From contig CACYNO010000006.1 of NCBI GenBank assembly GCA_902775895.1, positions 24,330 to 88,329 on the forward strand: DNA of 64,000 bases. The letters are read 5' to 3'. Below are positions 1,211 to 49,572 of the stretch, in pieces; the stretch's first letter is position 1, and every line of letters starts with the position of its first letter. This stretch comes from an uncultured Lachnospiraceae bacterium (GTDB taxonomy: Bacteria > Bacillota > Clostridia > Lachnospirales > Lachnospiraceae). The translations under genes and the position numbers were made by a program. The notes under the pieces were generated by a model. That model had not been told where the DNA came from. It ran no database searches and saw only the letters and a list, made by a program, of their open reading frames with translations.

Positions 1211-1462
1211 ATTTTGACGGCAGTATGTAGCGGGAATCCAAAACCGACTCGTTTTAATATTTCAAACATTAAAGAAAACGGTCCAAATAATTAAGACCGA
1301 TGAAATCGTTATACAGATGCCGGCCGTAGCTGCGAAGCAGCATTTACGGACGGTATCTGTGTTTATAACGATCATCGGTCTTTAAATTATTTAGGGCCGT
1401 TTTCTTAGTTTGAAATATTAAATACGAGTCGGTCAAGATTCCCGCATATCAGTCGTCAAAAT
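1211..1462. repeat. Large quasi-palindrome, family copy 1
   Basis: A 252-bp imperfect inverted repeat closing on the GCTGC-GAA-GCAGC hairpin near 1329-1341. The left (beta) arm holds CAAACATTA (1263-1271), GTCC (1281-1284), AATTAAGACCG (1289-1299) and CGTTATACAGAT (1307-1318). The right (alpha) arm, in plus-strand order, holds ATCTGTGTTTATAACG (1355-1370), CGGTCTTTAAATT (1376-1388) and AGGGCC (about 1393-1398). The two arms pair except at conserved bulges: 4 nt beside CGTTATA, 2 nt in AATT(TA)AAGA, and GCCCT against GTCC. The foot of the stem enters the last codons of the 78-residue gene: ATTTTGACG is present at 1212-1220 and inverted at 1454-1462. Confidence 0.9.
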
Positions 1463-1685
1463 CCACCTTGTTGTACTCGTAGTCGTCTGTCGTAAGATCA
1501 TCCCACTTCTCTTCAGATTCCGCGCAGATAACCTCCCAGGAATCTCTCTCCGGCTGGCTGTTGGAGTGGCTTCTGTAGTACTCCTCATCCTGTGCCGCAA
1601 ACTTTGCCTCATCAAGGGTATCATACTTCTCACAGTTCTTGATGCTGCCGTCATTTACATTTTTACGAAAAACATAATAAAACAT
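1449..1685 (-). CDS. Conserved-looking small acidic protein of unknown function
   Basis: I do not recognise this 78-residue protein. It begins MFYYVFRKNVNDG, is rich in Asp, Glu, Tyr and Ser, and ends in the acidic YNKVDFDD. It has no Cys pair motif, membrane segment or signal peptide. The aromatic start followed by a DTLDEAKFAA helix resembles small intracellular proteins with a beta-beta-alpha opening, but this is only an impression. I chose the ATG at 1685 because GGAGG sits 8 bases before it. An upstream in-frame ATG at 1700 has no ribosome site and contains that GGAGG. It has its own promoter after proS. Its stop codon lies inside the foot of palindrome copy 1. Confidence 0.75.
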   Translation of the reverse strand: MFYYVFRKNVNDGSIKNCEKYDTLDEAKFAAQDEEYYRSHSNSQPERDSWEVICAESEEKWDDLTTDDYEYNKVDFDD

Positions 1686-1722
1686 TTTTGATTCCTCCAT
1701 ATAGTTAGTTTAGTTGTCTTGT

Positions 1723-1731
1723 ATTATAACA
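1723..1731 (-). promoter_or_regulatory. Extended -10 promoter of the 78-residue gene
   Basis: Minus-strand TGTTATAAT, a perfect extended -10, lies five bases after the proS stop codon. This suggests the small gene is transcribed separately from the proS operon. No good -35 hexamer is visible at the usual spacing. Confidence 0.55.
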
Positions 1732-1735
1732 CATA

Positions 1736-3175
1736 TCAGTAAGCTTTTCCCCAATATACCAATTTTTTTGCAGGTTTTCCGCAACATACGCATACATCGG
1801 AGATACTTTCCTGCTCAAAAGGCATACATCGTGAGGTGGCTGTAGTTTCTTCTTTTATCTTGTCTTCACAGGCCATATCTCCGCACCACATGGCTTTTAC
1901 AAAGCCGGGCTTGTTCTCGATGGTATCCTTGAACGCCTCATAGTCACGGGCTTCGAAGGTGTTTTGATCCCTGTGCGCCTTTGCCCTGTTAAACATATCG
2001 GTCTGGATAGTATCTAACAGGTTCTTTACCTCATTTACCACTCCGTTTAAGCCCGTCTTTATCTTGTCCCTTGTGTCACGTCTTACCAGCACGCAGGCAT
2101 TTTCCTCTAAGTCTCTGGGGCCTATCTCAATACGGACGGGAATACCGCGCATCTCAGCCTCTGAGAATTTCCATCCGGGACTCTTGTCGGAGTCGTCTGT
2201 CTTTACGGATATACCGGCTTCTTTTAAAGCATTTTCCACTTCACGGCATTTATCAAGTACGCCTTCCTTTTGCTGCTGCACCGGGATGATACACACCTGT
2301 ACGGGTGCGATGCGCGGCGGAAGCACCAGACCTTCGTTATCGCCGTGTACCATGATCACGGCACCTATCATACGGGTGGTGACTCCCCATGATGTCTGGT
2401 TTACATACTGCAGGTTGTTATCCTTGTCCGTATATTGTATACCGAAAGCCCTTGCAAAACCGTCCCCGAAGTTGTGGCTGGTCCCGCTCTGGAGTGCCTT
2501 TCCGTCATGCATAAGAGCCTCGATCGTATATGTGGCTTCGGCTCCCGCAAATTTTTCCTTTTCTGTCTTCTGACCCTTTATAACGGGAATGGCAAGGACT
2601 TCCTCTGCAAACTCGGCATAAAGGTTCAGCATCTGAAGAGTACGCTCCTGTGCTTCCTCGTAGGTAGCATGGGCAGTGTGTCCCTCCTGCCAGAGAAACT
2701 CTCTTGAGCGAAGGAAAGGTCTTGTCTCCTTTTCCCACCTTACAACGGAACACCACTGGTTATAGACTTTGGGCAGGTCCCTGTAAGACTCGATCTCCTT
2801 GCTGTAAAAGTCACAGAACAATGTTTCCGATGTAGGACGTACACATAAGTTCTCTGCAAGAGGATCAAGTCCTCCTTTTGTGACCCAGGCCACCTCAGGA
2901 GCAAAGCCCTCCACATGATCCTTTTCCTTTTCAAGAAGGCTCTCCGGGATCATAAGAGGCATATATACATTCTCCACTCCCGTATCCTTGAACCTCTTAT
3001 CCAGCTGCTTCTGGATAGCCTCCCAGATGGCGTATCCTGCAGGCTTCAGTATCATAAATCCTTTTACGGATGAATAGGCCATAAGCTCGGCCTTTTTTAC
3101 GATGTCCGTATACCATTGTGCGAAGTCATCCTCCATGGATGTGATAGCTTCTACAAGTTTTTTATCTCCTGCCAT
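1736..3175 (-). CDS. proS: Prolyl-tRNA synthetase, archaeal/eukaryotic type
   Basis: Class IIa aminoacyl-tRNA synthetase charging tRNA-Pro with proline in the cytosol. At 479 residues it matches the short archaeal-like ProRS without the bacterial editing insertion. The early block [20 protein letters not shown], the motif 2 region [20 protein letters not shown] (about 146-165) and the motif 3 block [13 protein letters not shown] are clear. The C-terminus carries Cys residues in [10 protein letters not shown] and VCVCCGKP and ends in the KAY tail typical of this type, where a zinc-binding module closes on a terminal Tyr. The ATG overlaps the end of the upstream membrane protein by 25 bases, suggesting translational coupling in the divIC-to-proS operon. 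Confidence 0.96.
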
Positions 3176-3843
3176 GTCCTTTTCACCTTACCTTTTGATC
3201 TGTTTTGTTTTTCCATGTGAGCTTTTGAATAGTCTTTGTACTTCTCCTCGGCTACAGGGTATTTGTATATCTCATCCATATGTGAGAAAGCTTTCGGGAT
3301 AGAGATGTTTGACATTATCTCCGGCTTTAGTCTCTTGCCGTTCCTTATCTCAGTCTTTTCTATAACACCCCTTATCTTGAAGTAACCTCTGGTCTCCTGG
3401 GACTTTCCGCTAAGCTCGACGACTTTATACTCTTCATCTTTTGTGATCAGCTCATCACCCAGCTTCTCGTGAAGGAAGTTCTTATGCCACAAAAAGTAAT
3501 TTTTGCTGAAGATCATATAATCTTTTTTCAACCGGGAAAAACTGTGGTGCTGAACAAAAAAAAGTATGGGTATCCCCGCAATGGAACCCGTGGCCCATAC
3601 ACTTACAAGCCAACCCGTCATAAGGTTTCCCGCTCCCGGTATAACGATCCCGGCAGTCCTGAAAAGTATGATCCCGACTATGTAATAGACGATACCCGGT
3701 ACGCAGCACCAGCGCATTATGCGGTAAGGTTTGCCGTAGTTTTGCTTGTAGTACTCTTTATCAGGTACTCCTTTAATATCCTTTGCGACGTTTATATGAA
3801 TATCCACATCCATATCCGTTTCCGTCTGCATATTTTCTTCCAT
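3151..3843 (-). CDS. Two-span membrane protein of unknown function
   Basis: This 230-residue protein is not one I recognise. An acidic N-terminus ([18 protein letters not shown]) leads to a KPYRIMRW segment, then two hydrophobic spans at about 47-65 and 77-97. A soluble, basic C-terminal half contains [16 protein letters not shown] and a very basic tail ([15 protein letters not shown]). The layout is two central spans with a cytoplasmic C-terminal domain, loosely like YcxB-type proteins such as the one at 15027. AGAGG lies six bases before the ATG. It sits 16 bases after the vanY-type gene and overlaps proS, so it belongs to that operon. Confidence 0.8.
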
Positions 3844-3859
3844 AAAAAACCTCTGTAAA

Positions 3860-4609
3860 TCATTTATACTCGGAAGTTATACCGAGATATTCTTCCAAAC
3901 ACTCGCCGCTGTCCCTGAGATGTCCGGCAAGTTCTTTCCCTACGTAACGCAGATGCCAGGGCTCAAACTCATAGCCCGTGAAATCTTTTTTACCCTCGGG
4001 AAATCTTATTATGAACCCGTACTCATGGGCGTGCTCATCTATCCACACGCCCTCCTTTGTCTCCTCAAAGTTGGTTCCTGCTTCGTTTACATCAAATGAC
4101 AGACCGGTCTGGTGCTCGGAGTACCCCGGACGGGCAGAGTATTCCTCTGCATAATCCGCCCCGTGCTCATTGGCATATCTGTTATACAGTTCCTCCTGCC
4201 TGTCATAAGTACGAAATCCCGACTGCACCCAGAGCTTTATTCCTTCTTCCGCTGCAGCCTCCTGCATCTCGTCAAAGGCTTTCTGTGTATCTTCCGTCAG
4301 GTCCCCCGGATTGTAATCTTCAGGGAGGGAATAGGTCTTATTTACTATCAATATCCCGTCAACAAAAGTGACCCCGTCGATATTTTCAATCTTATAACCC
4401 TTTGAAGTAGTGTTCCCGTCTTCCGGCGGTGCCGTCTCCGTCGCAGGTTCCGGTTTTTCAGCAACCGTCTTTCCCTTGTCTTCGGGAGAGGCGGAAGCAG
4501 CCCTTACTATACCTGATATCACGGCAACGGGAATTATTATCGCACATGAACAAATGGCGAAAAGGATAGTAAGTTTTTTCAGTTTTTCATTCTGAATAAG
4601 CGCTCTCAC
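3860..4609 (-). CDS. VanY-type D-Ala-D-Ala / L,D-carboxypeptidase (peptidase M15B)
   Basis: Zinc-dependent peptidoglycan carboxypeptidase that trims stem peptides outside the membrane. A signal anchor covers about residues 11-38. An Ala/Pro/Glu-rich linker follows, then the M15B domain with QSGFRTYDRQEELYNRY, the SEHQTGLSFDV zinc motif (SxHxxGxxxD) and EPWHLRYVG, whose His completes the metal site. It is 249 residues, as usual. Translation seems to start at a GTG three bases after the ftsH stop, with no strong ribosome site, so coupling to ftsH is likely. No VanA/VanX or VanR/VanS genes are nearby, so I read it as housekeeping wall remodelling and not glycopeptide resistance. Confidence 0.9.
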   Translation of the reverse strand: MRALIQNEKLKKLTILFAICSCAIIIPVAVISGIVRAASASPEDKGKTVAEKPEPATETAPPEDGNTTSKGYKIENIDGVTFVDGILIVNKTYSLPEDYNPGDLTEDTQKAFDEMQEAAAEEGIKLWVQSGFRTYDRQEELYNRYANEHGADYAEEYSARPGYSEHQTGLSFDVNEAGTNFEETKEGVWIDEHAHEYGFIIRFPEGKKDFTGYEFEPWHLRYVGKELAGHLRDSGECLEEYLGITSEYK

Positions 4610-4612
4610 TTT

Positions 4613-6430
4613 TTAAACTTCCCGGGTAAATAAACTTTCAAATTCTTCTCTTGTTAATTTCTCTTTTTGTAACAACAGTTCTGATGATCTGTCAAGCACA
4701 TACCTGTACTTCTCTATTATCTGTCTTGCGCTCTTGTGGCATTCGTCAACTATACGCTTAACTTCCGAGTCGATCTGGGTAGCAACGGACTCACTGTAAG
4801 GTCTGCTGTGGCCGATCTCTCTTCCGATGAATACCTCTTCACTTCCGGCCTCGTAGTTGATAGGACCGAGCTTTGAAGAAAATCCGTACTTGGTCACCAT
4901 ATCCTTTGCAAGAGCCGTAGCCTGCTTGATATCCATGGATGCGCCCGTGGTAATATCGTCAAATACGATCTCCTCTGCCACACGTCCTCCCATGGCAACG
5001 ATGATATTCTGGAGCATCTTTCCTCGCGTGTTGAATATCTCATCATTTTCAGGAAGAGGCATGGTGTAGCCTGCAGCTCCCATACCCGTAGGTATGATGG
5101 AAATGGTATGCACGGGGCCCACATCCGGAAGTATGTGGAATAATATAGCGTGTCCGGACTCGTGATAAGCCGTGATCTTCTTTTCTTTTTCCGAGATAAC
5201 ACGGCTCTTCTTTTCTTTTCCGATACCCTCTTTTATGAATGCGTCTTTAACGTCTTCGTTTGTGATGAATTCATGCTTTCTCGTTGCTGCATTTATGGCA
5301 GCTTCGTTTAGCACGTTCTCAAGATCCGCTCCCGTAAATCCGGCTGTGGTCTTTGCCAGGGATTCAAGATCCACATCATCCGCCATAGGCTTATGTGAGG
5401 CGTGGACTTTCAGGATAGCAAGCCTTCCCTTGACATCAGGCTGTCCTACCATGATCTTACGGTCAAATCGTCCGGGCCTTAAGATCGCGGGATCGAGTAT
5501 ATCTATCCTGTTGGTAGCCGCCATAACGATGATGCCTGCATTTGCATCAAAGCCGTCCATCTCTACCAGCATCTGGTTCAGGGTCTGCTCTCTCTCGTCA
5601 TGTCCGCCCCCGAGACCCGACCCTCTCTGTCTTGCCACTGCATCGATCTCGTCGATAAATACGATACATGGTGCGTTCTTCTTTGCTTCCGAGAACATAT
5701 CCCTTACTCTTGAAGCACCCACACCAACGAACATCTCCACAAAGTCTGAACCGGAAATGCTGTAGAAGGGAACTCCCGCCTCTCCGGCAACGGCCTTTGC
5801 AAGAAGGGTCTTACCGGTTCCCGGAGGACCCGTAAGGATAACACCTTTAGGGATACGTGCACCCAGCTTTGTATATTTGGCAGGGTCTTTTAAGAAATCA
5901 ACGATCTCTTCAAGTTCTTCTTTTTCCTCGTCGACTCCGGCCACATCTTTAAACGTAACCTTCTTTCCGCCCTCGTTCATCCTGGCTTTGCTCTTGCCGA
6001 AGCTTGCCATTCTTCCGCCACCGGTGGACCTGGTTATAAACAGGAACATCACTATGATGGCGCCGATCATGATGATCGTGGGAATGATGGTGGTGAGCCA
6101 TGCGCTCTCACGCTTTACGTCTTTTACCTCAAACTCCGTTTTCTTTTCAATAAGGTATTTTTCAACGTCATTTACATCAGATACATAGAGCTGTTCATGC
6201 TTAGTACCGTCTTTTAGTTCAATCTTCAGTACACCCGTAGGTACCTCGGGATTCTGGGTGATATCCACATCCTTTACATTCCCGGCTTCCACATCAGCCT
6301 GAAACTGATAATATGAATAATCATCGGGCTGGCGCACATTGGTCCTGCCTATCACAAAAGCAAGAAATAGACCGGCCAGGATAATGGAATATATGATCAT
6401 TCCGCCCGAGTTTCTTTTTTTGTTGTTCAT
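4613..6430 (-). CDS. ftsH: ATP-dependent zinc metalloprotease FtsH
   Basis: Membrane-anchored AAA+ protease that degrades misassembled membrane proteins and regulators. In its 605 residues there is a first span at about 11-28, an external domain, and a second span at about 111-132. The AAA+ module has Walker A GPPGTGKT at 201-208, Walker [11 protein letters not shown] and [22 protein letters not shown]. The zinc motif HESGH is near 421-425 in the M41 peptidase domain. The ATG overlaps the tilS stop by 4 bases. The divIC-tilS-ftsH order is a familiar Firmicutes arrangement, though hpt is absent here. Confidence 0.97.
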
Positions 6431-7872
6431 AAAATATCTGTCTCCGTTTCTTTTACGGTAATCTTCAGTACCGCGCTGTCTTTATCTGCAAAAGCTTCCG
6501 TCGACTGTCTGACTCCCACTGCCCACAGACAACTGCTACCTTCTGCCATTATCAGGCAATTTTCACGTATCCGCTCCGGGATCTTGCGATCGATAAATTC
6601 TTTTTTTAATTTCTTTTTCGAGCCTTCGGAATCGATGGAGATCATATCTCCGGGAAGTCTTTTTCTAAAGCAGGTATTAGAGGTCATTTTATCATAATTA
6701 AAATATTTCGTATAGTCGGAGTTTGTGTTTTTGGTAAAATCATCGGTGATCTCCAGAATAATGGTGTATCCGTCATACTCAAACCCGGCACTTCCCATGG
6801 TTTCAAGTCTTTCCTTCAGCTCCCCGGTCATGAAAAAAAAAGGCTTAGTCTCAGTTTTTTCTTCTTTCCCGTAAAACTCCGCTTCCCCTCCGGATATCCT
6901 GAGTACAGCTCCTTTCGGCATCTCAATGGTAACACCTTCCGTACCGCCTGACCTTATGCCTTCCACAGCTGCTTCTATCCTCTCACTGCTCAGATCAAGA
7001 CCATCCTTTGATACATGCCGGTATGCCTTCATGACAATGGTCTCAAGAAGGATGTCCGGAAGACTATCCAGGTCTTTTTTTAAAAACACCAGGGAATCCC
7101 TTTTATTTACAATGGCTTTTCCCCTTATAAACTCATCTGCCTGTCCGTCCACATAGGTCTTATATTTACGGGCCGTTTCGGAAAGATTATTTACATGCGC
7201 TATAAAGTTCTTATTTATATTCTCTTCAATAGGTGCGATAACCTCATGACGGATAAAGTTCCTGGTATATGCCGTATCGGAGTTGGTGCTGTCCGTGACA
7301 TATTCCAGATCATTTTCTTCGACATAGTCCTCTATCACTTTCCTTGTAAGGCACATAAGGGGTCTGATGATCCCGTCTCTTTTCGGAGCGATGCCTGTTA
7401 TTCCCGCAAGCCCCGTACCTCTTGCCATATTAAACAGCACGGTCTCTGCAGAATCATTTTTGTGATGCGCCGTTGCTGTCACACCACCATTCAGCTCCTT
7501 TATCTTTTTTCTGAAAAGCTCATATCTGATACGCCGTCCCGCGGTTTCTTCGCTCTCACCCGTCTCTCTTGCTATCGCAGGTATATCCTCTGTTACTGTA
7601 GTTACAGGGACACTGATCTTACCGCAAAATTCTTTTACGAATTCCTCGTCCCTTTTTGCCTCGTCCCCCCGTATGGAGTGGTTCAGATGTACCGCATGAA
7701 GCTTCAGCGAGGAAAAATCCGAAACCTCGTTTTTTAATTTGTTTAAAATAAAAAGAAGGCAAACCGAGTCTGCCCCTCCTGAAAATCCTATGATGATGTT
7801 GTCGCCGGGGGCTGTCATCTCATACTTAAGCATGAAACGCGCCACTCTGCTCTCAACTTCTGAATCTGACAA
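6427..7872 (-). CDS. tilS: tRNA(Ile)-lysidine synthase
   Basis: N-type ATP pyrophosphatase that converts C34 of the CAU anticodon to lysidine, so that the tRNA reads AUA as Ile. The PP-loop SGGADS is at 31-36, followed by LHAVHLNHSIRGDEAKRDEEF and ATAHHKNDSAETVLFNMARG, which are TilS signatures. The C-terminal region (from about 400) has the FRKRLPGDMI and RQSTEAFA blocks of the TilS C-terminal domain. The 481 residues are normal. It starts 3 bases after divIC ends and overlaps ftsH, so it is an internal member of the same operon. Confidence 0.95.
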   Translation of the reverse strand: MSDSEVESRVARFMLKYEMTAPGDNIIIGFSGGADSVCLLFILNKLKNEVSDFSSLKLHAVHLNHSIRGDEAKRDEEFVKEFCGKISVPVTTVTEDIPAIARETGESEETAGRRIRYELFRKKIKELNGGVTATAHHKNDSAETVLFNMARGTGLAGITGIAPKRDGIIRPLMCLTRKVIEDYVEENDLEYVTDSTNSDTAYTRNFIRHEVIAPIEENINKNFIAHVNNLSETARKYKTYVDGQADEFIRGKAIVNKRDSLVFLKKDLDSLPDILLETIVMKAYRHVSKDGLDLSSERIEAAVEGIRSGGTEGVTIEMPKGAVLRISGGEAEFYGKEEKTETKPFFFMTGELKERLETMGSAGFEYDGYTIILEITDDFTKNTNSDYTKYFNYDKMTSNTCFRKRLPGDMISIDSEGSKKKLKKEFIDRKIPERIRENCLIMAEGSSCLWAVGVRQSTEAFADKDSAVLKITVKETETDIL

Positions 7873-7875
7873 TCT

Positions 7876-8202: not shown

Positions 8203-8245
8203 ATTTTAAGCCCCTTTGGACGCTTGTTAATGTTCATACAAAGCC

Positions 8246-8274
8246 AATATAACACCCGTAAAGGGCAATTTCAA
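8246..8274 (-). promoter_or_regulatory. Sigma-A promoter of the divIC-tilS-ftsH-proS operon
   Basis: On the minus strand TTGAAA (8269-8274) is followed after exactly 17 bases by TATATT (8246-8251). The predicted start is about 40 bases before divIC. This is one of the clearest sigma-70-type promoters in the window. Confidence 0.75.
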
Positions 8275-8282
8275 GCCTTTTA

Positions 8283-17987: not shown

Positions 17988-18259
17988 GGGAAGCTTCTGA
18001 TCTTTTTTAACACAGCTCCCATGATTTGCCTTTCCAAACTGTAGAATACAGCCCTGAAGAATTTAAAGATCGACCCCAATCGTTTGAACACGAATAAAAA
18101 GCATGCAAAGCTGCTTTTAAACTATCGTTTGCATTAATATGCGAGCAGCCATGCTTTTTATTCGTAAACGATTTGAGTCGATCTTAATTCTTCGGACTGT
18201 CTTCTAATGTTCGGAAAAGCAAACAGGTCGCTGTGTTATTAAAAGATCAGACGCTTCCC
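17988..18259. repeat. Large quasi-palindrome, family copy 2
   Basis: A 272-bp imperfect inverted repeat between the ferredoxin terminator and dnaB. Here alpha is the left arm: CAAACTGTA (18035-18043), GCCCT (18051-18055), AATTTAAAGATCG (18060-18072), CGTTTGAACACGAAT (18081-18095). The beta arm on the right reads ATTCGTAAACG (18160-18170), CGATCTTAATTC (18179-18190) and TTCTAATGTTCG (18202-18213). The foot pairs GGGAAGC-TCTGATC (17988 on) with its inverse at 18245-18259, which includes the dnaB stop codon. The apical part differs from copy 1 but again has GCTGC/GCAGC. Outer-stem sequence is nearly identical to copy 3. Confidence 0.9.
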
Positions 18260-19596
18260 TTCCTTAACTCCAGATTCGCAAAACGTGTCTGCTCCGGGAT
18301 CCATGCCAGCTTCACCGTCTTAAGAGGTCCGTTTCTGTGCTTGGCTATATTTATCTCCGCAATACCCTTTTCTTCAGTGTCAGGGTTGTACTTCTCATCA
18401 CGATAGATAAACATTACCACATCCGCATCCTGCTCAATGGCTCCTGATTCCCTGAGGTCGGAAAGCATGGGTCTGTGATCCGATGTTCTGGCTTCCGGGG
18501 CACGGGAAAGCTGAGACAGTGCCACTACAGGAACATCCATCTCTCTTGCAAGGGCTTTAAGTCCTCTTGATATATCCGATACCTCCTGCTGTTTTGAAGG
18601 CACTTTCTTATCCGATTCTATAAGCTGCAGGTAATCGATGATCACAAGCCCCAGATTGTTTTCGGCTTTGTACTTTCTGCATCTTGACCTTATTTCCGAA
18701 ACTGTGATCTCCGGCGAAACGTCTATGATAAGGTTCGCATCCGCAAGGACATCCGTACTGTCTACTATTCTCTCCCAGTCGGTTGTGTTCAGGTTTCCTT
18801 TTCGCATCTTATCGGAATCAACTCCGGATTCAATGGAAAGAAGTCTGTTTGCCAGCTGCATATCCGACATTTCCAAACTGAAAAAAGCCGTGGTTATCCC
18901 TTTTTTCATAGTTACATATTCGGCTATATTTAATACAAATGCTGTCTTTCCCATGGATGGTCTTGCAGCAATAAGTATAAGATCTGACGGCTGCAGCCCG
19001 AGAAGGCATGAGTCAATATCATCATATCCTGTGGGAATACCTGATATGGAGCTCTTGTTTCCGTATATCTCACTGATCTTTTCTATGGACTTGGCAAGTG
19101 CATCTTTTAAGAATATGCCATCCTTGGGACCGCTTTTTTGAATAAGTGAAAAGATCTTTTTTTCAGTATCTTCAAGTATCTCATCCGTGGTCTTTTTTCC
19201 CGCATAGCACTCGTCGGCGATTTTTTCATTTATATCTATGATAGCTCTAAGAAGAGATTTTTCTTTTATTATCTGCGCGTACTGGCCTGCGTTGGCAGCC
19301 GTGGGTACCGCTCTCGCCAGATCTCCCAGAAAGCTTGTGTTACTTATATCCTCAGGCGCACCCTTTGCCTTTAATGCATCCTGAACCGTAACTATGTCCG
19401 TTGCTTTCCCTGCATCCCTGAGTTCAATTATTGCCTCATAGATAAGCCTGTAAGCCTTGTGGTAAAAATCATAGGGTTTAATAATGGTCATGACCTCCGA
19501 AGCCGCATCAGAGTCCACAAACAAAGCCCCTATAAGGGACTGCTCCGCTTCAAGACTGTTGGGCTTAACCCTTGTGATGATCTTTTCTTCTTCCAT
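18247..19596 (-). CDS. dnaB: Replicative DNA helicase DnaB
   Basis: Hexameric RecA-fold helicase that unwinds DNA ahead of the replisome. In 449 residues the N-terminal domain (PNSLEAEQSLIGALFVDSDA) is followed by a linker and the ATPase with Walker A ARPSMGKTAF (about 212-221), the VIIDYLQLI block, SQLSRAPEART and LRESGAIEQDADVV. Length is normal. It starts directly after rplI in the order gdpP-rplI-dnaB, common in Firmicutes. Its stop codon and last three or so codons form one side of the stem foot of palindrome copy 2. Confidence 0.97.
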   Translation of the reverse strand: MEEEKIITRVKPNSLEAEQSLIGALFVDSDAASEVMTIIKPYDFYHKAYRLIYEAIIELRDAGKATDIVTVQDALKAKGAPEDISNTSFLGDLARAVPTAANAGQYAQIIKEKSLLRAIIDINEKIADECYAGKKTTDEILEDTEKKIFSLIQKSGPKDGIFLKDALAKSIEKISEIYGNKSSISGIPTGYDDIDSCLLGLQPSDLILIAARPSMGKTAFVLNIAEYVTMKKGITTAFFSLEMSDMQLANRLLSIESGVDSDKMRKGNLNTTDWERIVDSTDVLADANLIIDVSPEITVSEIRSRCRKYKAENNLGLVIIDYLQLIESDKKVPSKQQEVSDISRGLKALAREMDVPVVALSQLSRAPEARTSDHRPMLSDLRESGAIEQDADVVMFIYRDEKYNPDTEEKGIAEINIAKHRNGPLKTVKLAWIPEQTRFANLELRKGSV

Positions 19597-22104: not shown

Positions 22105-23031
22105 TCACAGCAAAACAAATATAAAATACGCCGCATACCCGGCGAGGAATATGATCCCTGCCCATTTGTACAGTTTTTTCGTTTTAAAACAAAACGCAAG
22201 AAGCGCTGCTGCAGCTACAAAAGAAACCATGAGATCCCATCTGAAGGATACCGTAAAAGGCACGGTGGTGATAAGCGCTGATATACCCACAACGAAGATA
22301 ATGTTAAAGATATTGCTTCCCACCACATTTCCGATAGCTATGTCCGCATTGCCCTTTTTTGCGGCTGTTATTGAGGTCACAAGCTCCGGTAGTGACGTAC
22401 CGAAGGCTACCACTGTAAGCCCGATGAACCTGTCGCTTACACCGAATGCCTTTGCGATCTCCGTGGCCGCATTAACCGTGATCTGGCTGCCGAATATGAT
22501 AAGAGCAACACCTGCTCCGGTCATAATAAGAGCTATGGGGAGCTTTAACTCCTTTTTATTTTCTTCTTCCTGTGATCCCCCACCTGTCCTTGCAAGTCTT
22601 AACAGATAAATAATATATCCCACAAGGAGAGCGATAAAGACCAGACCGTCCAGGAAGCCGATCTTCCCGTCAAGACCCAGAAGAAAAAGCACTGCTGTTA
22701 CTATGAGCAGAAACGGGATCTCAAACTTCACGGTACTCACCGATACCGTAAGCACCGTTATGACGGAAGTAATACCCAGTATGATCAGTATGTTCAGGAT
22801 ATTACTTCCCAGGATATTCCCTATGGTTATATCCGCATTTCCTTTTGCAGCAGCCGATATACTCACCGCAGCCTCAGGGGCGCTCGTCCCCATTGCCACG
22901 ATGGTAAGACCTATAACCAGCTGGGGGATGCCGAAACGTGTGGCTATCCCCACGGCGCCGTCAACAAAAAAGTCGGCACCCTTTATCAACATGGCAAATC
23001 CGACTGCCAGTAAAATCCATTGAAGTACCAT
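22105..23031 (-). CDS. Na+/Ca2+ exchanger-type cation antiporter (CaCA, YrbG family)
   Basis: About ten spans in 308 residues with the two alpha repeats of CaCA exchangers: GTSAPEAAVSISAA followed by GNADITIGNILGSNI, and GTSLPELVTSITAA followed by GNADIAIGNVVGSNI. The conserved acidic residues that bind the cation are present in both. It should exchange Ca2+ (or another divalent ion) for Na+ or H+ at the plasma membrane. ATG at 23031 is chosen because GAGGGGGG lies five bases upstream. A longer in-frame TTG at 23046 contains that site. Confidence 0.93.
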   Translation of the reverse strand: MVLQWILLAVGFAMLIKGADFFVDGAVGIATRFGIPQLVIGLTIVAMGTSAPEAAVSISAAAKGNADITIGNILGSNILNILIILGITSVITVLTVSVSTVKFEIPFLLIVTAVLFLLGLDGKIGFLDGLVFIALLVGYIIYLLRLARTGGGSQEEENKKELKLPIALIMTGAGVALIIFGSQITVNAATEIAKAFGVSDRFIGLTVVAFGTSLPELVTSITAAKKGNADIAIGNVVGSNIFNIIFVVGISALITTVPFTVSFRWDLMVSFVAAAALLAFCFKTKKLYKWAGIIFLAGYAAYFIFVLL

Positions 23032-23050
23032 TAAATCCCCCCTCAAAAAA

Positions 23051-23059
23051 ATTATACCA
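23051..23059 (-). promoter_or_regulatory. Extended -10 promoter of the exchanger gene
   Basis: Minus-strand TGGTATAAT in the short gap after arcC. The leader would be only about 12-15 nt, so either this or read-through from arcC could drive the gene. Confidence 0.45.
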
Positions 23060-23064
23060 AAAAA

Positions 23065-23997
23065 TCAATATTCAATAACGGTTCCCGACTCACCCGTAAG
23101 TGCCATACCGGCATTCTTAAGGGATGAGATAACAGCTTTACCGTTTTTATTGTTCTCAAGAAAACTTATACATGCTTCTATCTTAGGCAGCATGCTTCCC
23201 GGAGCAAACTCACCCTTTGCCATATACTCCTTTGCTTCAGAAACCCTCATCTTTTCTATACATCGCTCACTTTCCGTGTTGTAATCAAGACAAACCCGGT
23301 CCACTGCCGTAAGTATCATGAGCACATCTGCTCCCAGCTCTCCAGCCAGTTCCGCCGCTGACTTGTCCTTGTCTATTACACCGGGAACACCTCTGAGACC
23401 TGATTCCGTCTCCACCACCGGTATTCCGCCACCGCCGACTGCAATTACTATATCGCCGTCATCGCTCAGCTTCTTTACCGTATCTATCTCCACTATCCTT
23501 TTGGGCTCCGGAGATGCTATAACACGGCGGTAGCCTCTTCCCGCATCTTCCTTAAAAGTTCCTTTCCTTTCCGCCTGCAGGGCATCAGCCTCCTCTTTTG
23601 TATAGAAACGCCCCACCGGCTTGGTGGGATTGGTAAATGCGGGATCTTTTTCATCCACTACCACCTGGGTCACTATGGTAGCAACATTTTTTTGTATGTC
23701 TCTTTTCTTTAATTCCCAGCCTATCCCCTGCTGCAGATGATAACCTATATACCCCTGGGACATGGCCCCGCACTCGGGATAAGGCATCTCCGGAATCTTT
23801 TCATCCGTGCCTGCGGCTATGGACATGGCAAGGTTTATCATCCCCACCTGTGGCCCGTTTCCGTGAGCGATCACCACGTCATTTCCCGCCTCTATAATAT
23901 CCACTATCGCCTCCGAAGTGGCCTTTACCAGTTCAAGCTGTTTTTCGGGAGTGCTGCCGAGGGCATTCCCACCTAACGCCAATACTATCTTACTCAA
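23065..23997 (-). CDS. arcC: Carbamate kinase
   Basis: Amino acid kinase-fold enzyme making ATP from carbamoyl phosphate and ADP, the last step of the arginine deiminase or allantoin/agmatine pathways. The 310 residues show ALGGNALGSTPEKQLELV, NGPQVGMINLAM, PKRIVEIDTVKKL and VIAVGGGGIPVVE. Translation starts at TTG (23997) six bases after AAGGTGG. A small hairpin (ATCAGTG-AAA-CACTGAT, 24024-24040) lies just upstream of the ribosome site. No arcA or arcB neighbour is present, so the carbamoyl phosphate source is elsewhere. Confidence 0.95.
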   Translation of the reverse strand: MSKIVLALGGNALGSTPEKQLELVKATSEAIVDIIEAGNDVVIAHGNGPQVGMINLAMSIAAGTDEKIPEMPYPECGAMSQGYIGYHLQQGIGWELKKRDIQKNVATIVTQVVVDEKDPAFTNPTKPVGRFYTKEEADALQAERKGTFKEDAGRGYRRVIASPEPKRIVEIDTVKKLSDDGDIVIAVGGGGIPVVETESGLRGVPGVIDKDKSAAELAGELGADVLMILTAVDRVCLDYNTESERCIEKMRVSEAKEYMAKGEFAPGSMLPKIEACISFLENNKNGKAVISSLKNAGMALTGESGTVIEY

Positions 23998-43957: not shown

Positions 43958-43973
43958 TCTTTTTTCCTTCCTT

Positions 43974-45758
43974 TCAATCGGGATTAATATTTATGATTAG
44001 GTTAGATAACTCGTTTTTTTTCTTAAGAAGCTGCGCGAGTTCCTCCGGAGGAGCATTCTCGCACTTTTCATCATGCCTTCGTATGACCATGTTCTTCAGG
44101 GATTCCGATGCGAATCTTGCTTTAGTCCCGGCATCGGAATTGTCATACATATCATTGCAAAATATCCTTCCCACATCGCTTTGTTCTTCATCATCAAAGC
44201 GACTGATAATTTCACCTTCCTGTATAGTACCACCATTATTTATCTTGTCAAATACTATATCGGCAACTTCCTGCAAAATTCCGCTCGAAAAATCCTCCGG
44301 TGAAACAAACTCTTTGACAACAGGGAAGATACCGGGATCTCTCACAAGGGCAAGGAGTACATTTCTCTCATCGGCATGACCGGTATCTACATCCCTTCCT
44401 TTTGCATTTGCAGAGTTTACTCTTCCTGCGGGGGGAGCCTTTGTTCTCTTTATAATACCTCCCTGCCTTAAGGCATCATCTCCTATGCGGTTTACTTCCG
44501 CCGCAAGGAGTTCCCTGTCGATACCGAATCTTTCGGATACGGTTTTGACAAACTCCCTGCGTTGGAATTTGTCATTTAACCCCGCTATCATTTCTGCCGC
44601 TTTCATCTCAAATCCGGCATTTTCCGAAGGGTCATTTCTGTCATACTCTGCCTCCTCACACTCCAGTTCAAAGACAAGAGCATTATCGGAATTCCTTATG
44701 CGCACCTCTACTCCGTCAGCACCCTCCGATCTTATCATCTCATCCGGATCTTTAAAAGGCTTCATACTGACAACATTTACAAAAGCTCCTGCTTCCCTGA
44801 GCAAGGGGATGGCTCTTCTCATAGCCTGTGTTCCCGCGCTGTCAGCATCGTATATAAGATAAACTTTTCTTGCCATCTTTGCAATGATATCTGCCTGCTC
44901 TTTTGTAAGGGCCGTACCCAAAGATGCAACAGTCTCAGGATACCCGGTCTGATGCATGGATATGACATCCATGTATCCTTCCACAAGTATCATTCTCTCT
45001 TTTCTTGCAGCCACTGCCCGCTGTACTCCGTAGAGATTATTCTTTTTGCTGTAGATGATGGTCTCGGGTGAGTTAATATATTTGGGAAGCCTGTCCCACA
45101 TCACCCTTCCGCCGAATGCTATCACCTTTGAAGACCTGTTCATAATGGGAAACATTATCCTGTCTGTAAAGATGTCCCGGGGCTTTCCGCTTTTATAAGA
45201 AAATAGTCCTGACTCCTTCAGTTCCTCATCATTGTAGCCCTTGTCCTTTAACACCTTGTAAAGAGCAGTTCCTTCCCCTGTGGCATAGCCCAGGCCGAAT
45301 GCCACCATGGTATTTTTTGTAATGCCTCTTTTTTTCAGATATTCAAGAGCTTCTTTCCCTTCTTCGGAATGCAGATTTGAAAAGTAAAATTCTGCAGCGG
45401 CCTTGTACATGTCTCTTAGTCTGTTCTTTAACCCGGCTTTTATCCTTCCGGAATCACCGTAGTCGAATTTTTCGGGGATCTCTATCCCGGCGGACTCAGC
45501 AAGTTCTCTTACAGCATCCGGAAAATCCAAATGGTTATAATCGCAAAGAAACTTAAACACGTCACCGCCCTTGTGGCATCCATGGCAGTAATAAAACTGC
45601 CCGTCCTGCATAACAAAAAATGAAGGGGTCTTCTCGTTGTGAAAAGGACAAAGCCCCTTATAGTTTGCACCTGATCTTTTCAGATCCACATATCTGCCGA
45701 TCACATCGACTATATCGCTTTCGGCGCGGACGCGCTCTTTGAATTCTTCGTAATTCAT
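43974..45758 (-). CDS. dnaG: DNA primase
   Basis: Makes RNA primers for replication. The 594 residues contain the CHC2 zinc finger ([13 protein letters not shown] then [12 protein letters not shown], about 38-68) and the primase core with [20 protein letters not shown]. The TOPRIM motifs [15 protein letters not shown] and [18 protein letters not shown] follow, and then a C-terminal helicase-interacting domain. Length is typical. It leads into rpoD after 16 bases, the usual dnaG-rpoD arrangement, and follows the dNTPase gene by eight bases. Confidence 0.97.
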
Positions 45759-45766
45759 AGATCCCT

Positions 45767-46774
45767 TTAATACTCCCAGGCCCTCGGAACAAAAATATCT
45801 TTAAAAACTTTTATGGAATACTGATCGCTCATACTGGCTATGTAATCGCAAATAGCTGTCTCTTCATCTTCTCCCCTGTCGCTTACGATCTTACGATAGT
45901 TTTCCGGAACCTCTTTGTAATTTTTCTTAAAGTACTCAAAGAGTTTTTCTATCATCTTCTTTACTTTGATCTCCTCACTCTTTGCAGCCGGATTGCTGTA
46001 GAGATTTTCGAACATGAACTTTCTTAAGTTCATCATTGTATTTTCCATTGTACCGGGCATGGATATTTCATCTTTTCCCATGCTGTTTTCGACGATTGCG
46101 CGGATCAAAGTATCAAGTCTTTCTCTTGATGAATGACCGAGAGCTTCCGTATACTCTTCCGGTATCATTGACTCTTTGAAAATATTTGCCCTTATGGCAT
46201 CATCAATGTCATGATTTATATAGGCAATTTTATCGGACAGCCTCACCACCTGTCCCTCTAAGGTGGAAGGACGTCCGGAGGTTCTGTGATTGATTATACC
46301 GTCGCAGACTTCCCAAGACAGGTTTAATCCTTCTCCGTCCTTTTCCAGCACGTTGACTACCCTGAGACTCTGGTCGCAATGACTGAAGCCTTTCTTTGAT
46401 ATCTCATTCAAAGTCCTCTCACCTGCATGGCCGAAGGGGGTATGTCCCAGATCGTGGGCAAGGGCTATGGCCTCCGTCAGGTCTTCATTTAATCTCAGTG
46501 ACCTTGCAATACTCCTTGCGATCTGCGCCACTTCCAGTGTATGTGTAAGCCTTGTCCTGTAGTGGTCACCTTCCGGAGCAAGAAAAACCTGTGTCTTATG
46601 TTTTAATCTTCTGAAAGCTTTACAATGAATGACTCTGTCTCTGTCACGCTGGAAACATGTACGCATCTCGTCGTCTTCTTCAGGCTTTATCCTGCCTTTA
46701 CTCTCATCTGAAAAGGTCGCGTACTCAGAAAAAAATTCGTGCTCTATCCTCTGGGTCTCTTCTCTTATCGTCAA
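45767..46774 (-). CDS. HD-domain dNTP triphosphohydrolase (Dgt-like)
   Basis: A 335-residue HD-domain protein of the deoxyguanosinetriphosphatase-like family that removes triphosphate from dNTPs. Motifs are RTRLTHTLEVAQIARSIARS (first His), AIALAHDLGHTPFGHAGERT (HD pair) and DKIAYINHDIDDAIRANI (later Asp). The family is common directly upstream of dnaG in Firmicutes, where it may balance dNTP pools. The start is TTG (46774), eight bases after AAGGGG. Its -10 (TATAAT, 46815-46820) is divergent to the CBS protein promoter. Confidence 0.92.
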   Translation of the reverse strand: MTIREETQRIEHEFFSEYATFSDESKGRIKPEEDDEMRTCFQRDRDRVIHCKAFRRLKHKTQVFLAPEGDHYRTRLTHTLEVAQIARSIARSLRLNEDLTEAIALAHDLGHTPFGHAGERTLNEISKKGFSHCDQSLRVVNVLEKDGEGLNLSWEVCDGIINHRTSGRPSTLEGQVVRLSDKIAYINHDIDDAIRANIFKESMIPEEYTEALGHSSRERLDTLIRAIVENSMGKDEISMPGTMENTMMNLRKFMFENLYSNPAAKSEEIKVKKMIEKLFEYFKKNYKEVPENYRKIVSDRGEDEETAICDYIASMSDQYSIKVFKDIFVPRAWEY

Positions 46775-46814
46775 TTCTTTTTCCCCTTTTTACGAAGCAA
46801 AAAACTTGAAGCTT

Positions 46815-46829
46815 ATTATATGATATAAT
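46815..46829. promoter_or_regulatory. Back-to-back divergent -10 elements
   Basis: Plus-strand TGATATAAT (TATAAT at 46824-46829) serves the CBS/CNNM gene. Minus-strand TATAAT (46815-46820) serves the dNTPase gene. They are three bases apart, so the two polymerases should exclude each other. The plus -10 overlaps the ATG at 46828, ruling out that codon as a translation start. Confidence 0.55.
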
Positions 46830-46857
46830 GGCTTCAAATGAAAGGAGTGTTTTAAAA

Positions 46858-48132
46858 TTGGACCCCTGGGGTGTAGTTCAGATCATCATAATAATCGTGC
46901 TGATAGCGTTGTCGGCTTTTTTTTCTTCCGCCGAAACAGCGTACACGACGGTAAACAAGATAAAGCTGCGCTCTCTTTGTGACAAAGGAAACAAGAGGGC
47001 TGTACAGGTTTCTCATATTCTGGAAAATCCCAGCCGCATGTTGTCCACTATCCTTGTGGGCAACAACATCGTAAACATCGGTGTATCTTCCCTTACCACA
47101 ACCTTTGCCATAAGGTATTTCGGTGGTGCCGCGGCAGGAATATCTACGGCCATACTCACGGTGATCCTTTTGATCATCGGAGAGATCACTCCGAAGACGC
47201 TTGCTTCCACAAAGCCCGAGACCATAGCCATGCTTTATGCTCCCGTTATCAGAGCTGTCATGGTGGTACTTACTCCCGTGGTCTTTGTGATCGACAAGTT
47301 AGCAGGCTGGATACTCAAGCTCTTTAAGATTGACAACACAAAACCCACCGCCACCATCACCGAAGCCGAGCTAAAAGCCCTGGTGGATGTGAGTCACGAA
47401 GAAGGAGTCCTTGAATCAGACGAGAAAAAGATCATCCACAATCTTTTTGAGTTCGGTGACTCCTTCGCAAAGGATGTGATGGTCCCCCGTATAGATATGA
47501 ACTATATATCTGAAGACGCTTCCTTTGATGAAGTCATGGATATCTTCAAAGAAAGTTCTCATTCCCGCATTCCCGTATTCAGGGACAATCCGGACAATAT
47601 CGTAGGCGTTTTGTATAGCAAGGACGTTCTTCTTTCAGGACCTTTCACCGAGAGCTCGAGGAAAAATTCTTTCAGCATAACGAGACTTATGCGAAAGCCT
47701 TACTTTACCTTTGAGATGCAAAACACTTCCGTCCTTTTTAAAGACATGCAAAAAAATGCGACTTCCTCCGCTATTGTTATCGACGAGTACGGATCAGTCG
47801 CAGGCTTTATCACAACACAGGATCTTATAGAGGAGATCATCGGAGAGATCCGTGATGAATACGATCTTGAAGGCGATGAGCCTTTTGTACAGGTGGCTGA
47901 AAACAAGTACCGGGTTGAGGGGGCATATAAGCTGGATGATATAAATCATGCCCTTGGCACACATCTAAGGTCAGAAGACAACGACTCCATCGGCGGACTG
48001 ATCATTGAGCAGCTGGACAGGTTCCCCAGGGCCGGGGATTCCATTGAGCGGGATGGGGTAAAGGCGACTGTGATGAAGGTGAATAATAAGAGGGTAGAGT
48101 CGGTGATGCTGGAACTGCAGGGAGACGGATAA
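46858..48132 (+). CDS. CNNM/HlyC-CorC family transporter-like protein with CBS pair
   Basis: A 424-residue membrane protein: an N-terminal CNNM (DUF21) domain with about four spans (residues about 5-190), a CBS pair (about 200-330; MVPRIDMNYISEDASF and SSAIVIDEYGSVAGFITTQD) and a C-terminal CorC/HlyC domain (about 340-424). Relatives are implicated in Mg2+/Co2+ efflux. I place the start at TTG 46858, ten bases after AAAGGAG, because the ATG at 46828 lies within the promoter. The last ten codons (SVMLELQGDG) are also the foot of palindrome copy 3. Confidence 0.9.
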   Translation: MDPWGVVQIIIIIVLIALSAFFSSAETAYTTVNKIKLRSLCDKGNKRAVQVSHILENPSRMLSTILVGNNIVNIGVSSLTTTFAIRYFGGAAAGISTAILTVILLIIGEITPKTLASTKPETIAMLYAPVIRAVMVVLTPVVFVIDKLAGWILKLFKIDNTKPTATITEAELKALVDVSHEEGVLESDEKKIIHNLFEFGDSFAKDVMVPRIDMNYISEDASFDEVMDIFKESSHSRIPVFRDNPDNIVGVLYSKDVLLSGPFTESSRKNSFSITRLMRKPYFTFEMQNTSVLFKDMQKNATSSAIVIDEYGSVAGFITTQDLIEEIIGEIRDEYDLEGDEPFVQVAENKYRVEGAYKLDDINHALGTHLRSEDNDSIGGLIIEQLDRFPRAGDSIERDGVKATVMKVNNKRVESVMLELQGDG

Positions 48133-48393
48133 TTACGGAAACCTGTTTGTCTTTCCGAACATTAGAAGGCGGTTCGAAGAATTCGGAGAGATGCTCCGGC
48201 ATACGAATGAAAAGCATATTGTTTGAAAAAAATGCGTCAGGATTTCCTGACGCATTTTTTGAGTTTATGCTTTTCTTTCGTGTTTATGCCGGAGCATATC
48301 TCCGGTAATTCTTCAGGGCCGGATTCTACAGTTTGGAAAGGCAAAGCAGGTTGCCGTAAAATTTTCCGTTCCCGGCAGTTCATACATCACCGA
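48100..48393. repeat. Large quasi-palindrome, family copy 3
   Basis: The longest copy, 294 bp. The foot starts in the upstream gene: TCGGTGATG (48100-48108) and GAACTGC (48112-48118) recur inverted at 48374-48393. Beta is the left arm: CGAACATTA (48156-48164) and CATACGAA (48200-48207). Alpha is the right arm: TTCGTGTTTATG (48278-48289), AGGGC (48315-48319), TACAGTTTG (48327-48335). The apex is a perfect hairpin AAAAAATGCGTCAGGA / TCCTGACGCATTTTTT, which resembles a bidirectional terminator. Outer-stem sequence is nearly the same as copy 2, in the reverse orientation. Confidence 0.9.
48226..48260. terminator. Bidirectional terminator-like hairpin at the apex of palindrome copy 3
   Basis: Perfect stem AATGCGTCAGGA / TCCTGACGCATT with a short loop, flanked by an A-tract and a T-tract. 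It can end the CBS/CNNM transcript on the plus strand and thiE on the minus strand. Confidence 0.85.
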
Positions 48394-48421
48394 TAATGTT
48401 AAAACATATTTGAGAAATAAA

Positions 48422-49045
48422 TCACTTCAACAACTCCTCCACTATCCCGCATATATCCGCCTCACCCACTATCCCGGTGACAAGACACACACACTTAGCC
48501 CCGTGATCAAAGACTTCTTTTACGTTTATTTTTTTTATCCCTCCTATGGCAACGAATGGTATGTCGATATTCTCCACTACCCAGTCCAGATAGCCCAGGC
48601 CTACCGGGGCACATACGTTTTTCTTTGTGTGTGTCTCAAATATTGGACCCACACCTATATAGTCGGCCCCTCTTTTAACGGCGTCACGGGCCTGCTCCGG
48701 CGAGTGAGTGGAAAGACCGATGATAAAATCATCTCCCACAAGAGAGCGTACAGCTTCTATAGGCATATCCTCCTGGCCGATATGCACTCCGTCCGCCTCC
48801 ACCGCCGTGGCCAGGTCGGTAAAATCGTCTATTATGAGACGTGCACCGGCCTCTGCCGTCATCTCACGTATCTTTATGCATTGGCGGTACATCTCAAGAC
48901 CGCTTTTTTCCTTTTCCCTGTATTGTATGACTTTTATACCTGCCTTCAGCATATCCGCCACATCGGAAATGTTGTCGTGACTGTAGGATAAGTCCTCTGC
49001 AGTCATACCGTATATAGGGAACTCATATAAAAAATTTTTATCCAA
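48422..49045 (-). CDS. thiE: Thiamine-phosphate synthase
   Basis: TIM-barrel enzyme joining HMP-PP and the thiazole phosphate to make thiamine phosphate. The 207 residues show GIKVIQYREKEKSG, ARLIIDDFTDLATAVEADGV, HIGQEDMPIEAVR and GADYIGVGPIFETHTKKN, all ThiE patterns, and VAIGGIKKINV near the end. Translation starts at TTG (49045) seven bases after GGAGG. No other thiamine genes are adjacent and no TPP riboswitch is visible. It converges with the CBS/CNNM gene, with palindrome copy 3 between. Confidence 0.94.
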   Translation of the reverse strand: MDKNFLYEFPIYGMTAEDLSYSHDNISDVADMLKAGIKVIQYREKEKSGLEMYRQCIKIREMTAEAGARLIIDDFTDLATAVEADGVHIGQEDMPIEAVRSLVGDDFIIGLSTHSPEQARDAVKRGADYIGVGPIFETHTKKNVCAPVGLGYLDWVVENIDIPFVAIGGIKKINVKEVFDHGAKCVCLVTGIVGEADICGIVEELLK

Positions 49046-49149
49046 TCATCTGCCTCCGGTATTTACTCATCTTTTTTTACACATTTTCAAAAACATAGCA
49101 CAGACACCTGATCGGTTGCAACCACAGAAAAAACCCGAAATTTTTTATC

Positions 49150-49179
49150 TTGAAATCTTATGTCATATTGTTGTATAAT
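49150..49179 (+). promoter_or_regulatory. Promoter of tRNA-Pro
   Basis: TTGAAA (49150-49155), an 18-base spacer, and TATAAT (49174-49179), about 19 bases before the mature tRNA 5' end. Confidence 0.75.
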
Positions 49180-49197
49180 AGTTGGGCATGAAATTTT

Positions 49198-49271
49198 CGG
49201 GGTGTGGCGCAGTTTGGTAGCGCGCTTGACTGGGGGTCAAGAGGCCGCAGGTTCAAGTCCTGTCACTCCGA
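49198..49271 (+). tRNA. tRNA-Pro (anticodon GGG)
   Basis: A 74-nt cloverleaf: acceptor CGGGGTG / CACTCCG with one wobble, D-arm GCGC-GCGC, anticodon stem CTTGA / TCAAG with loop CTGGGGG (anticodon GGG), T-arm GCAGG-TTCAAGT-CCTGT and discriminator A. The 3' CCA is not encoded. It is a single-gene unit, with palindrome copy 4 starting 54 bases downstream. A proS gene elsewhere in the window would charge it. Confidence 0.95.
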
Positions 49272-49325
49272 CTATTTTAAAAAGCCGGCTTCCGTGTTTG
49301 TTTTTTCGGACTATATAATAACAAA

Positions 49326-49572
49326 GTCGGTAGCGTATAAAAACGGGAGAGCACCTCAGACATTCGAAAGCAGTATCAGCGAACATTATAAATCTGCCAC
49401 AGAATTAAGACTGCCCTTATCGTTATACGAACCAAAGCATAACCAAATTTTTATGATTTGGTTCGTGTTCATAACGATAAGGGCAGTCTTTAAATTCTGT
49501 AGGCTGAGTTATACAGTTTGCTGAACTGCTTTTCGAATGTCAGGTGCTTTCTCGTTTATCATACGGTCCGTC
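49326..49572. repeat. Large quasi-palindrome, family copy 4
   Basis: A 247-bp imperfect inverted repeat between tRNA-Pro and the response regulator, whose stop codon it abuts. Beta (left): CGAACATTA (49380-49388), AATTAAGACTG (49403-49413), CGTTATACGAACC (49421-49433). Alpha (right): TTCGTGTTCATAACG (49462-49476), CAGTCTTTAAATTC (49484-49497), AGGCTGA (49501 on), TACAGTTTG (49512-49520). The central stem CTGCCCTTATCGTTAT pairs perfectly. Outer arms CATTCGAAAGCAG and CTGCTTTTCGAATG are specific to this copy. The foot pairs GTCGG (49326) with CCGTC (49568). Confidence 0.92.

Follow-up and report, generated by a model that had tools for sequence, protein, structure and literature searches.

Hairpins in the window

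The DNA analysed here (the window) is a stretch of 64,000 nt from contig CACYNO010000006.1 of an uncultured Lachnospiraceae bacterium, and the subject of this report is a family of long intergenic hairpins, four of which lie in it. The genome of origin, G000, is a metagenome-assembled genome (MAG) of 1.65 Mb in 14 contigs and is 95% complete. A first-pass annotation of the window had described four inverted repeats with short non-complementary blocks at matching places in the two arms, termed alpha and beta. All four were located where it had placed them, at 1211-1462, 17988-18259, 48100-48393 and 49326-49572. The z-scores of their folds are -18.4, -18.3, -19.8 and -17.7, respectively, and for each copy none of 200 shuffles folded as well. 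Inspection of the sequences also bore out that the blocks CAAACTGTA and CGAACATTA are the same in copies 2 to 4, and that copy 1 has altered versions of them.

The intervals above are the extended hairpins, each of which surrounds a shorter shared core. The core of copy 1 (1253-1427) has the beta arm first on the plus strand. Copy 2 (core 18020-18223) has the beta arm first on the minus strand and is flanked by a ferredoxin gene (plus strand) on one side and by dnaB (18247-19596, minus strand; Pfam DnaB) on the other. The last coding bases of dnaB, its stop codon and the first downstream bases (18245-18259, minus strand) lie within the outer arm of copy 2, and an inverted near-copy of this gene end, matching by eye at 14 of 15 bases, is found on the far side of the element (17988-18002, plus strand). 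Copy 3 (core 48146-48350, plus strand) stands between a CorC/HlyC-like gene (plus strand) and a thiE-like gene (minus strand), both recognised with Pfam, and its apex appears by eye to be a terminator-like hairpin. The neighbours of copy 4 (core 49370-49534, plus strand) are a tRNA gene (49198-49271) and a response regulator gene (minus strand), as found with Rfam and Pfam. The structure model R2, described below, scores copies 1 to 4 at 159.4, 169.3, 149.4 and 135.4 bits; all four belong to its training set, so these scores of 135-169 bits are no independent test. A degenerate fifth copy at 63426-63604 (plus strand), absent from the first-pass annotation, has a readable apex and part of the 3' arm. 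It scored 42.3 bits at 63495-63556 on the plus strand (model positions 57-118) and 25.2 bits at 63426-63604 on the minus strand.

Conserved fold and covariation

Forty copies, 32 from G000 and eight from its relative G006, were aligned with the beta arm first (alignment A3), leaving out 11 of the 51 copies then known, which were short, broken, cut or unusual. Two-sided changes were found in 51 of the 59 pairs of the RNAalifold structure and, in the five helices of more than one pair, in 11 of 13, 12 of 16, 10 of 10, 15 of 16 and 3 of 3 pairs. Standard pairs occupy 96.3% of 2353 cells, compared with 78.9% in shuffled alignments. The statement that stems differ between copies and remain complementary within each was made from four copies and extends to all forty. 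None of 500 shuffles, a test which ignores the relatedness of the copies, reached any of five measures, the 51 of 59 two-sided pairs among them. When the partner was slid by one to three columns only 39-46% of cells paired; the structure was derived from A3 itself and is favoured over the slid versions, but the effect is very large even so.

The unpaired parts of the structure are conserved as well. By eye they comprise an AUU/ACA-type loop, a U-G pair beside a bulged A, a two-base bulge and a UGUU-type bulge, and the extra bases of the loops and bulges lie on the 3' arm of the strand that is read beta arm first. In copy 2 the alpha-arm block CAAACTGTA (18035-18043, plus strand) faces CGAACATTA, seen on the plus strand as TAATGTTCG (18205-18213), and the two form internal loop 1, both in conserved columns of A3. 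Further along the alpha arm, on the plus strand and again located through A3, the GCCCT block (18051-18055) corresponds on the beta-first strand to the U-G pair adjoining the bulged A, and the AATTTAAAGA block (18060-18069) to the two-base bulge of the 3' arm. The GAACACG block (18086-18092, plus strand), CGUGUUC on the beta-first strand, holds the UGUU-type bulge of the same arm; its first U and its G are invariant in all 40 copies. One internal loop of copy L020 is almost repaired, as judged by eye. The apex is variable and by eye takes the form of a short GCUGC-GAA-GCAGC hairpin, a longer hairpin or a terminator-like hairpin between runs of A and T. In the aligned copies the core is approximately 165-220 nt, and longer with the arms. 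Selection for a structure with fixed internal loops, which the first-pass annotation had proposed, is supported by the covariation in five helices, by the conserved loops and by the asymmetry of wobble pairs.

Strand asymmetry

The two strands of a hairpin can be distinguished because a G-U pair on one of them reads as an A-C mismatch on the other. On the beta-first strand the 56 pairs of A3 with a Watson-Crick majority contain 124 G-U, 18 A-C and 65 other mismatched cells, counted on the structure predicted for that strand. More G-U than A-C was found in 27 columns and the reverse in five; per copy, over all 59 pairs, G-U was in excess in 40 of 40. The alpha-first alignment (A2), with the structure predicted on that strand, gave by hand count about 7 G-U and about 27 A-C. 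Folding energies point the same way: the beta-first strand has the more stable fold in 48 of 51 copies when RNA energies are used (by a mean of 13.9 kcal/mol) and in 50 of 51 with DNA energies (mean 6.7). As both energy sets favour this strand, they do not separate RNA from single-stranded DNA (ssDNA). The alpha-first strand was rejected as the working strand, since G-U is rarer than A-C there and the beta-first strand folds better.

Differences between closely related copies were counted in 14 disjoint closest pairs. One-sided steps led to G-U in 34 cases, to A-C in three and to other mismatches in 12. The same pairs contain 54 two-sided Watson-Crick switches, 15 other two-sided differences and one difference between two non-Watson-Crick states. 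The three closest pairs, 96-97% identical, show six one-sided changes and no two-sided ones. The beta-first excess is just as strong, 51 G-U to 2 A-C, in the ten aligned copies flanked only by genes that read the alpha-first strand. In a check for replication-strand bias, 25 of 38 G000 copies had negative GC skew on the beta-first strand.

The excess of G-U on the beta-first strand means that the fold of one strand is preserved, and the asymmetry points to strand-specific selection. The arms can be told apart and the element has an orientation, as the first-pass annotation stated; the preserved strand reads the beta arm first, which is opposite to the alpha-first order adopted there.

Family size and distribution

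A pattern taken from the alpha arm found 12 places in G000. Structure models were then available from 13 copies (R1) and 40 copies (R2); their E-values are rough and the training copies match by construction. Counting the better strand per place, R2 found 36 strong places in G000 (at least 81 bits) and five weak ones (27 to 47 bits), about ten times the four copies noted in the first-pass annotation. The strong places are unevenly spread, with 15 of 36 on contig C2 (235 kb) and four on C1 (613 kb).

Among 11 genomes of the genus, copies are present in three. The other two bearers are the MAGs G006 (88% complete), with 12 strong places and one weak place, and G001 (86% complete), with two; R2 found no copies in the eight remaining members. 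These two bearers are also the members nearest to G000 by two proteins: DnaB, with 82 and 76% identity compared with 61% for the next member, and the CorC-like protein, with 85% for each compared with 64%. No copies were found with R1 and stricter filters in 50 genomes outside the genus. In 397 sampled genomes of the taxonomic family only G000 gave a match, which is a weak negative with about six candidates scored per genome. A scan of 84,980 species genomes with a pattern of the G000 type, which may leave out records of the genome of the window itself, returned ten stretches, two of which are supported by R2: L140 (contig C48 of G006) and L138. A search of plasmids and phages with one copy as query gave no match, and one pattern run on IMG/VR gave a single match unsupported by R2.

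The first-pass annotation recognised no named family in the four hairpins, and none emerged here. At the gathering score Rfam matches only a tRNA in the window, and with copy 2 at E up to 10 it gave matches far below the gathering score, two of them with E 0.0007. No description recognisable as this family was found in the published literature, covered mostly through papers available without subscription.

Location at gene ends

Crude open reading frame (ORF) calls gave a neighbour on both sides for 49 of 51 copies. The flanking genes are convergent for 26 of these copies, co-directional for 22 (14 and 8 by orientation) and divergent for one; the background, 84 adjacent ORF pairs in 104 kb of G000 with some copies included, has 12 convergent, 12 divergent and 60 co-directional pairs. 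The copies are located after stop codons, at gene ends.

In some copies the outer arm enters the coding end of a gene, as with dnaB at copy 2 and the CorC/HlyC-like gene at copy 3, and an inverted near-copy of that end lies on the opposite side. By a local test, complementarity between the flanks beyond the shared core exceeds, in 20 of 51 copies, the 99th percentile of a null set made from flanks of different copies; this test was chosen second, the anchored stem-extension version having slipped in register with 13 of 51 above the 95th percentile.

The CorC-like gene and a murF-like gene (the gene name is our reading) are convergent neighbours in G006 and G001 and lie on different contigs in G000, where a copy stands at the end of each (L032 and L028). 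The murF-like proteins of G006 and G001 are 81 and 79% identical to that of G000. The gap between the two genes holds a half-element remnant in G001 and another hairpin in G006. The family may mark points of rearrangement.

Evidence on mobility

The gap between dnaB and the ferredoxin gene is 342 nt with its copy in G000, and 117 and 115 nt without a copy in G001 and G010; no ferredoxin gene was seen within 700 nt in G006, G002 and G004, and the G003 row, read in a wrong frame, was not counted. The longest exact inverted copy of the dnaB end is 11 bases in G000, compared with none above seven in the intergenic regions of G001 and G010 (the G008 dnaB and G001 corC rows were not counted in the comparison of gene tails). 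The G000 region also has, by eye, a separate terminator-like hairpin beside the element. The proposal that every copy occupies the loop of a usual terminator found no support at dnaB, where the element adjoins this hairpin.

A FastTree tree of 43 copies with midpoint root contains clades of 12 and eight copies found only in G000 (support 0.925 and 0.894) and a cluster of three G006 copies (0.984). Six pairs of copies are syntenic between G000 and G006, five by both flanks and L066/L047 by one, and all six have identical orientation, as read from the directions of the hits. A seventh G006 copy, L048, matches L061 on one flank, with orientation unchanged, and L017 on one flank, with orientation reversed. 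L013 and L043 are sisters in the tree. The pairs L027/L049 and L014/L069 are syntenic and not sisters (L069 has diverged and sits on a long branch); copies from different lineages can thus occupy one and the same place.

Nested copies were also found. L044 of G001 consists of two concentric copies that together make a single palindrome of about 646 nt and whose halves are 87-88% identical. L046 is likewise concentric and is cut by a contig end, and L020 and L023 of G000 lie beside or within the remains of another copy. Taken together, the clades confined to G000, the empty dnaB-ferredoxin sites in two relatives and the nested copies suggest mobility.

Candidate mobilising enzymes

Three enzyme classes were searched for as mobilisers. 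The Y1 (HUH) transposase (PF01797) gave no match above cut-off in G000, G006 and G001, and is present in four of the 11 genus genomes. Reverse transcriptase (PF00078, RVT_1) gave none in the same three bearers and is present in two of the 11. The DEDD transposase of IS110 (PF01548) gave none above cut-off in any of the 11. The three bearers are MAGs with completeness of 95, 88 and 86%, and the search covered these three enzyme classes and not others such as tyrosine recombinases or DDE transposases. Sub-cut-off matches to PF01548 occur in six of the 11 genomes (G000:C1:269027-269227 and five relatives), all in ORFs of 1420-1438 aa; they are perhaps the RuvC part of a Cas9-like protein.

Interpretation and alternatives

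On balance we lean towards the reading that these hairpins form a clade-restricted and apparently new family of small non-autonomous mobile elements whose folded form is specific to one strand. Each element would be essentially one long hairpin. Selection would preserve the fold of the beta-first single strand, as RNA or as ssDNA, and the stem would be free to change while its pairing was kept. This folded strand would be the substrate of transposition for an enzyme that presumably acts in trans, and the fixed loops and bulges, with their extra bases on the 3' arm, would be likely recognition points of the mobilising protein. New copies would arise after stop codons, mostly between convergent genes, and the copy at the dnaB site was probably gained in this way. 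Insertion would sometimes occur into the centre of a resident copy and so produce concentric hairpins. Inverted copies of gene ends could come from fold-back synthesis during insertion or from later template switching.

Several observations weigh against a mobile element. States seen in a single copy show only a weak wobble excess (16 G-U, 8 A-C and 37 other), and strand-biased mutation of the element's own strand may be an alternative source of the asymmetry. Gene conversion among sites that are themselves fixed could have produced the clades confined to G000. The fold has been kept in some syntenic copies of old date (L013/L043), something that a host function would explain as well. Target-site duplication is not above chance, with direct repeats of at least nine bases in 2 of 51 copies compared with 9 of 150 in the null set; such duplications may have been lost in old copies. 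The absence of Y1, RVT_1 and IS110 matches in the three bearers counts in the same direction. So does a search for solo arms, which found no autonomous, gene-bearing copy, only known, half or degraded copies and chance matches. The half copies and remnants are at C2:69308, C2:154328, C2:146913 and C2:129904, the last two identified by eye and R2 having no match in L168-L170. C2:159822 was rejected as a solo arm, as it lacks a hairpin partner and looks like chance.

The strongest alternative, which we consider unlikely, is a host RNA element: a multi-copy structure at gene 3' ends (a terminator, an RNase III substrate or a stability element) whose copies are homogenised by gene conversion. It would account for the location at gene ends, for the unchanged orientation of the six syntenic pairs, for the copies L027/L049 and L014/L069 standing at the same places despite belonging to different clades and for the terminator-like appearance of some apices, and the wobble asymmetry fits RNA. 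However, the beta-first excess of 51 to 2 occurs in the ten copies whose neighbours read only the other strand. No copies were found in eight of 11 genus members, and nesting and the empty dnaB-ferredoxin sites are also against it. By eye the G000 dnaB-ferredoxin region retains an ordinary terminator-like hairpin in addition to the element, and L048 shares a flank with L017 in the opposite orientation.

Less probable still is an ordinary palindromic repeat resembling a miniature inverted-repeat transposable element (MITE), with arms kept complementary by template switching in replication and with neither selection nor a special structure. Template switching is reported to create and maintain hairpins and to give rise to compensatory changes (PMC8794818). 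The 54 two-sided Watson-Crick switches outnumber the 34 one-sided G-U steps in the 14 close pairs, the inverted gene-end copy on the far flank, as at dnaB, looks like fold-back synthesis, and the nearly repaired loop of L020 is in line with such a process. Yet template switching alone predicts no G-U excess, whereas one-sided steps between close copies run 34 to 3, and the three closest pairs contain no two-sided change among six. It would also erase asymmetric loops, and these are conserved. Because the wobble asymmetry and the conserved bulges are left unexplained, template switching alone is insufficient; the many two-sided switches (54, against 34 G-U steps) leave room for it to have contributed.

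An integron-like recombination site, with the folded strand as substrate of a tyrosine recombinase as in attC, is the least probable of those weighed: the strand-specific fold, conserved extrahelical bases, variable apex and freely varying stems would suit it, but there is no cassette array, the copies are dispersed in both orientations and the attC boxes (RYYYAAC / GTTRRRY) were not seen by eye in the consensus.

If the mobile-element reading is carried further, the hairpins might represent a new class of mobile element, with the shape of a single strand and not its sequence as the defining feature. The folded strand, RNA or ssDNA, would be recognised through its four fixed loops and bulges and moved. 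It would enter the centres of hairpins at gene ends, those of its own kind included, and so build concentric shells; inverted gene ends would be a by-product of fold-back synthesis at insertion, and the enzyme would lie outside the Y1, reverse-transcriptase and IS110 classes. We offer this wider proposal tentatively and regard it as less likely than not.

Most known bacterial repeats are recognised by their shared sequence. In G000 a shape and a few bulges are retained at about 40 places whose stems drift, and the asymmetry reveals the working strand. Sequence identity reveals such a family poorly, and others may therefore be overlooked. As a probable mobile element, the family also allows selection on a folded single strand to be put to the test.

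Comparison with known systems

REP/BIME sequences are described as dispersed intergenic palindromes that are frequently between convergent genes (PMC1525189). The hairpin family is likewise extragenic, and its neighbours are convergent in 26 of 49 cases and divergent in one, compared with 12 and 12 of 84 ORF pairs. A REP palindrome is about 20-40 nt long, has a conserved tetranucleotide at its foot and is partnered by RAYT, a Y1 transposase. The hairpin core of 165-220 nt is several times longer, it has fixed internal loops and extensive covariation, and Y1_Tnp is unmatched in G000, G006 and G001. The family thus lives like REP/BIME and differs from them in the defining features tested, size and partner enzyme.

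MITE-type repeats (ERIC, RUP, Correia/NEMIS) are short, non-autonomous, palindromic, intergenic and lineage-specific, and are recognised by shared sequence. The hairpins have all of the first five properties. In contrast to such repeats, their stems vary freely while structure and loops are kept, and neither target duplication nor, in the search for solo arms, a parent was found. In the attC sites of integrons one strand acts in folded form, with extrahelical bases, a variable terminal structure and the boxes RYYYAAC / GTTRRRY. The strand-specific fold indicated by the wobble asymmetry, the extrahelical bases and the variable apex recall these sites, but the hairpins have another motif, are longer, form no cassette array and are dispersed in both orientations.

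The IS110 family uses a bridge RNA with guide loops, a structured RNA, and inserts into palindromes. Structured RNA and insertion into palindromes are the points of likeness; the elements studied here differ in being one hairpin without guide loops, and the transposase was above cut-off in none of the 11 genus genomes. For a retroelement (retron or group II intron), no PF00078 match was found in the three bearers. Covariation and conserved loops are shared with the structured non-coding RNAs of Rfam, from which the copies in the window differ in having no match at the gathering score.

Other observations

A different palindrome family, GGGGACRG...CYGTCCCC, occurs in genus members, with several of its copies at gene ends. 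It was seen at L168 (G000:C2:145400-148500), L047 (887 and 2755), L103, L116 and L133. At L168 such a palindrome directly adjoins, by eye, half of a hairpin element, and at L037 arms of this kind surround a copy. At L151 2350-3250 (G000:C11, about 22350-23250) a tRNA gene, identified by eye, stands between a full copy and a half copy of opposite orientation, and the two copies have outer arms in common.

L138 is contig C62 of G429, a MAG labelled Spirochaetaceae (RUG703). Its first 5.6 kb are about 99.5% identical to G000:C11 and the rest is dissimilar; the contig is probably chimeric. As a strain comparison it was set aside, its copy differing by one base in a run of A and so showing neither gain nor loss. 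A repeat-rich gene at G000:C11:38597-38816, whose repeats we take from their look to be cell-wall-binding-like, differs from its counterpart near position 1206 of G429:C62 by about 255 bases of repeats.

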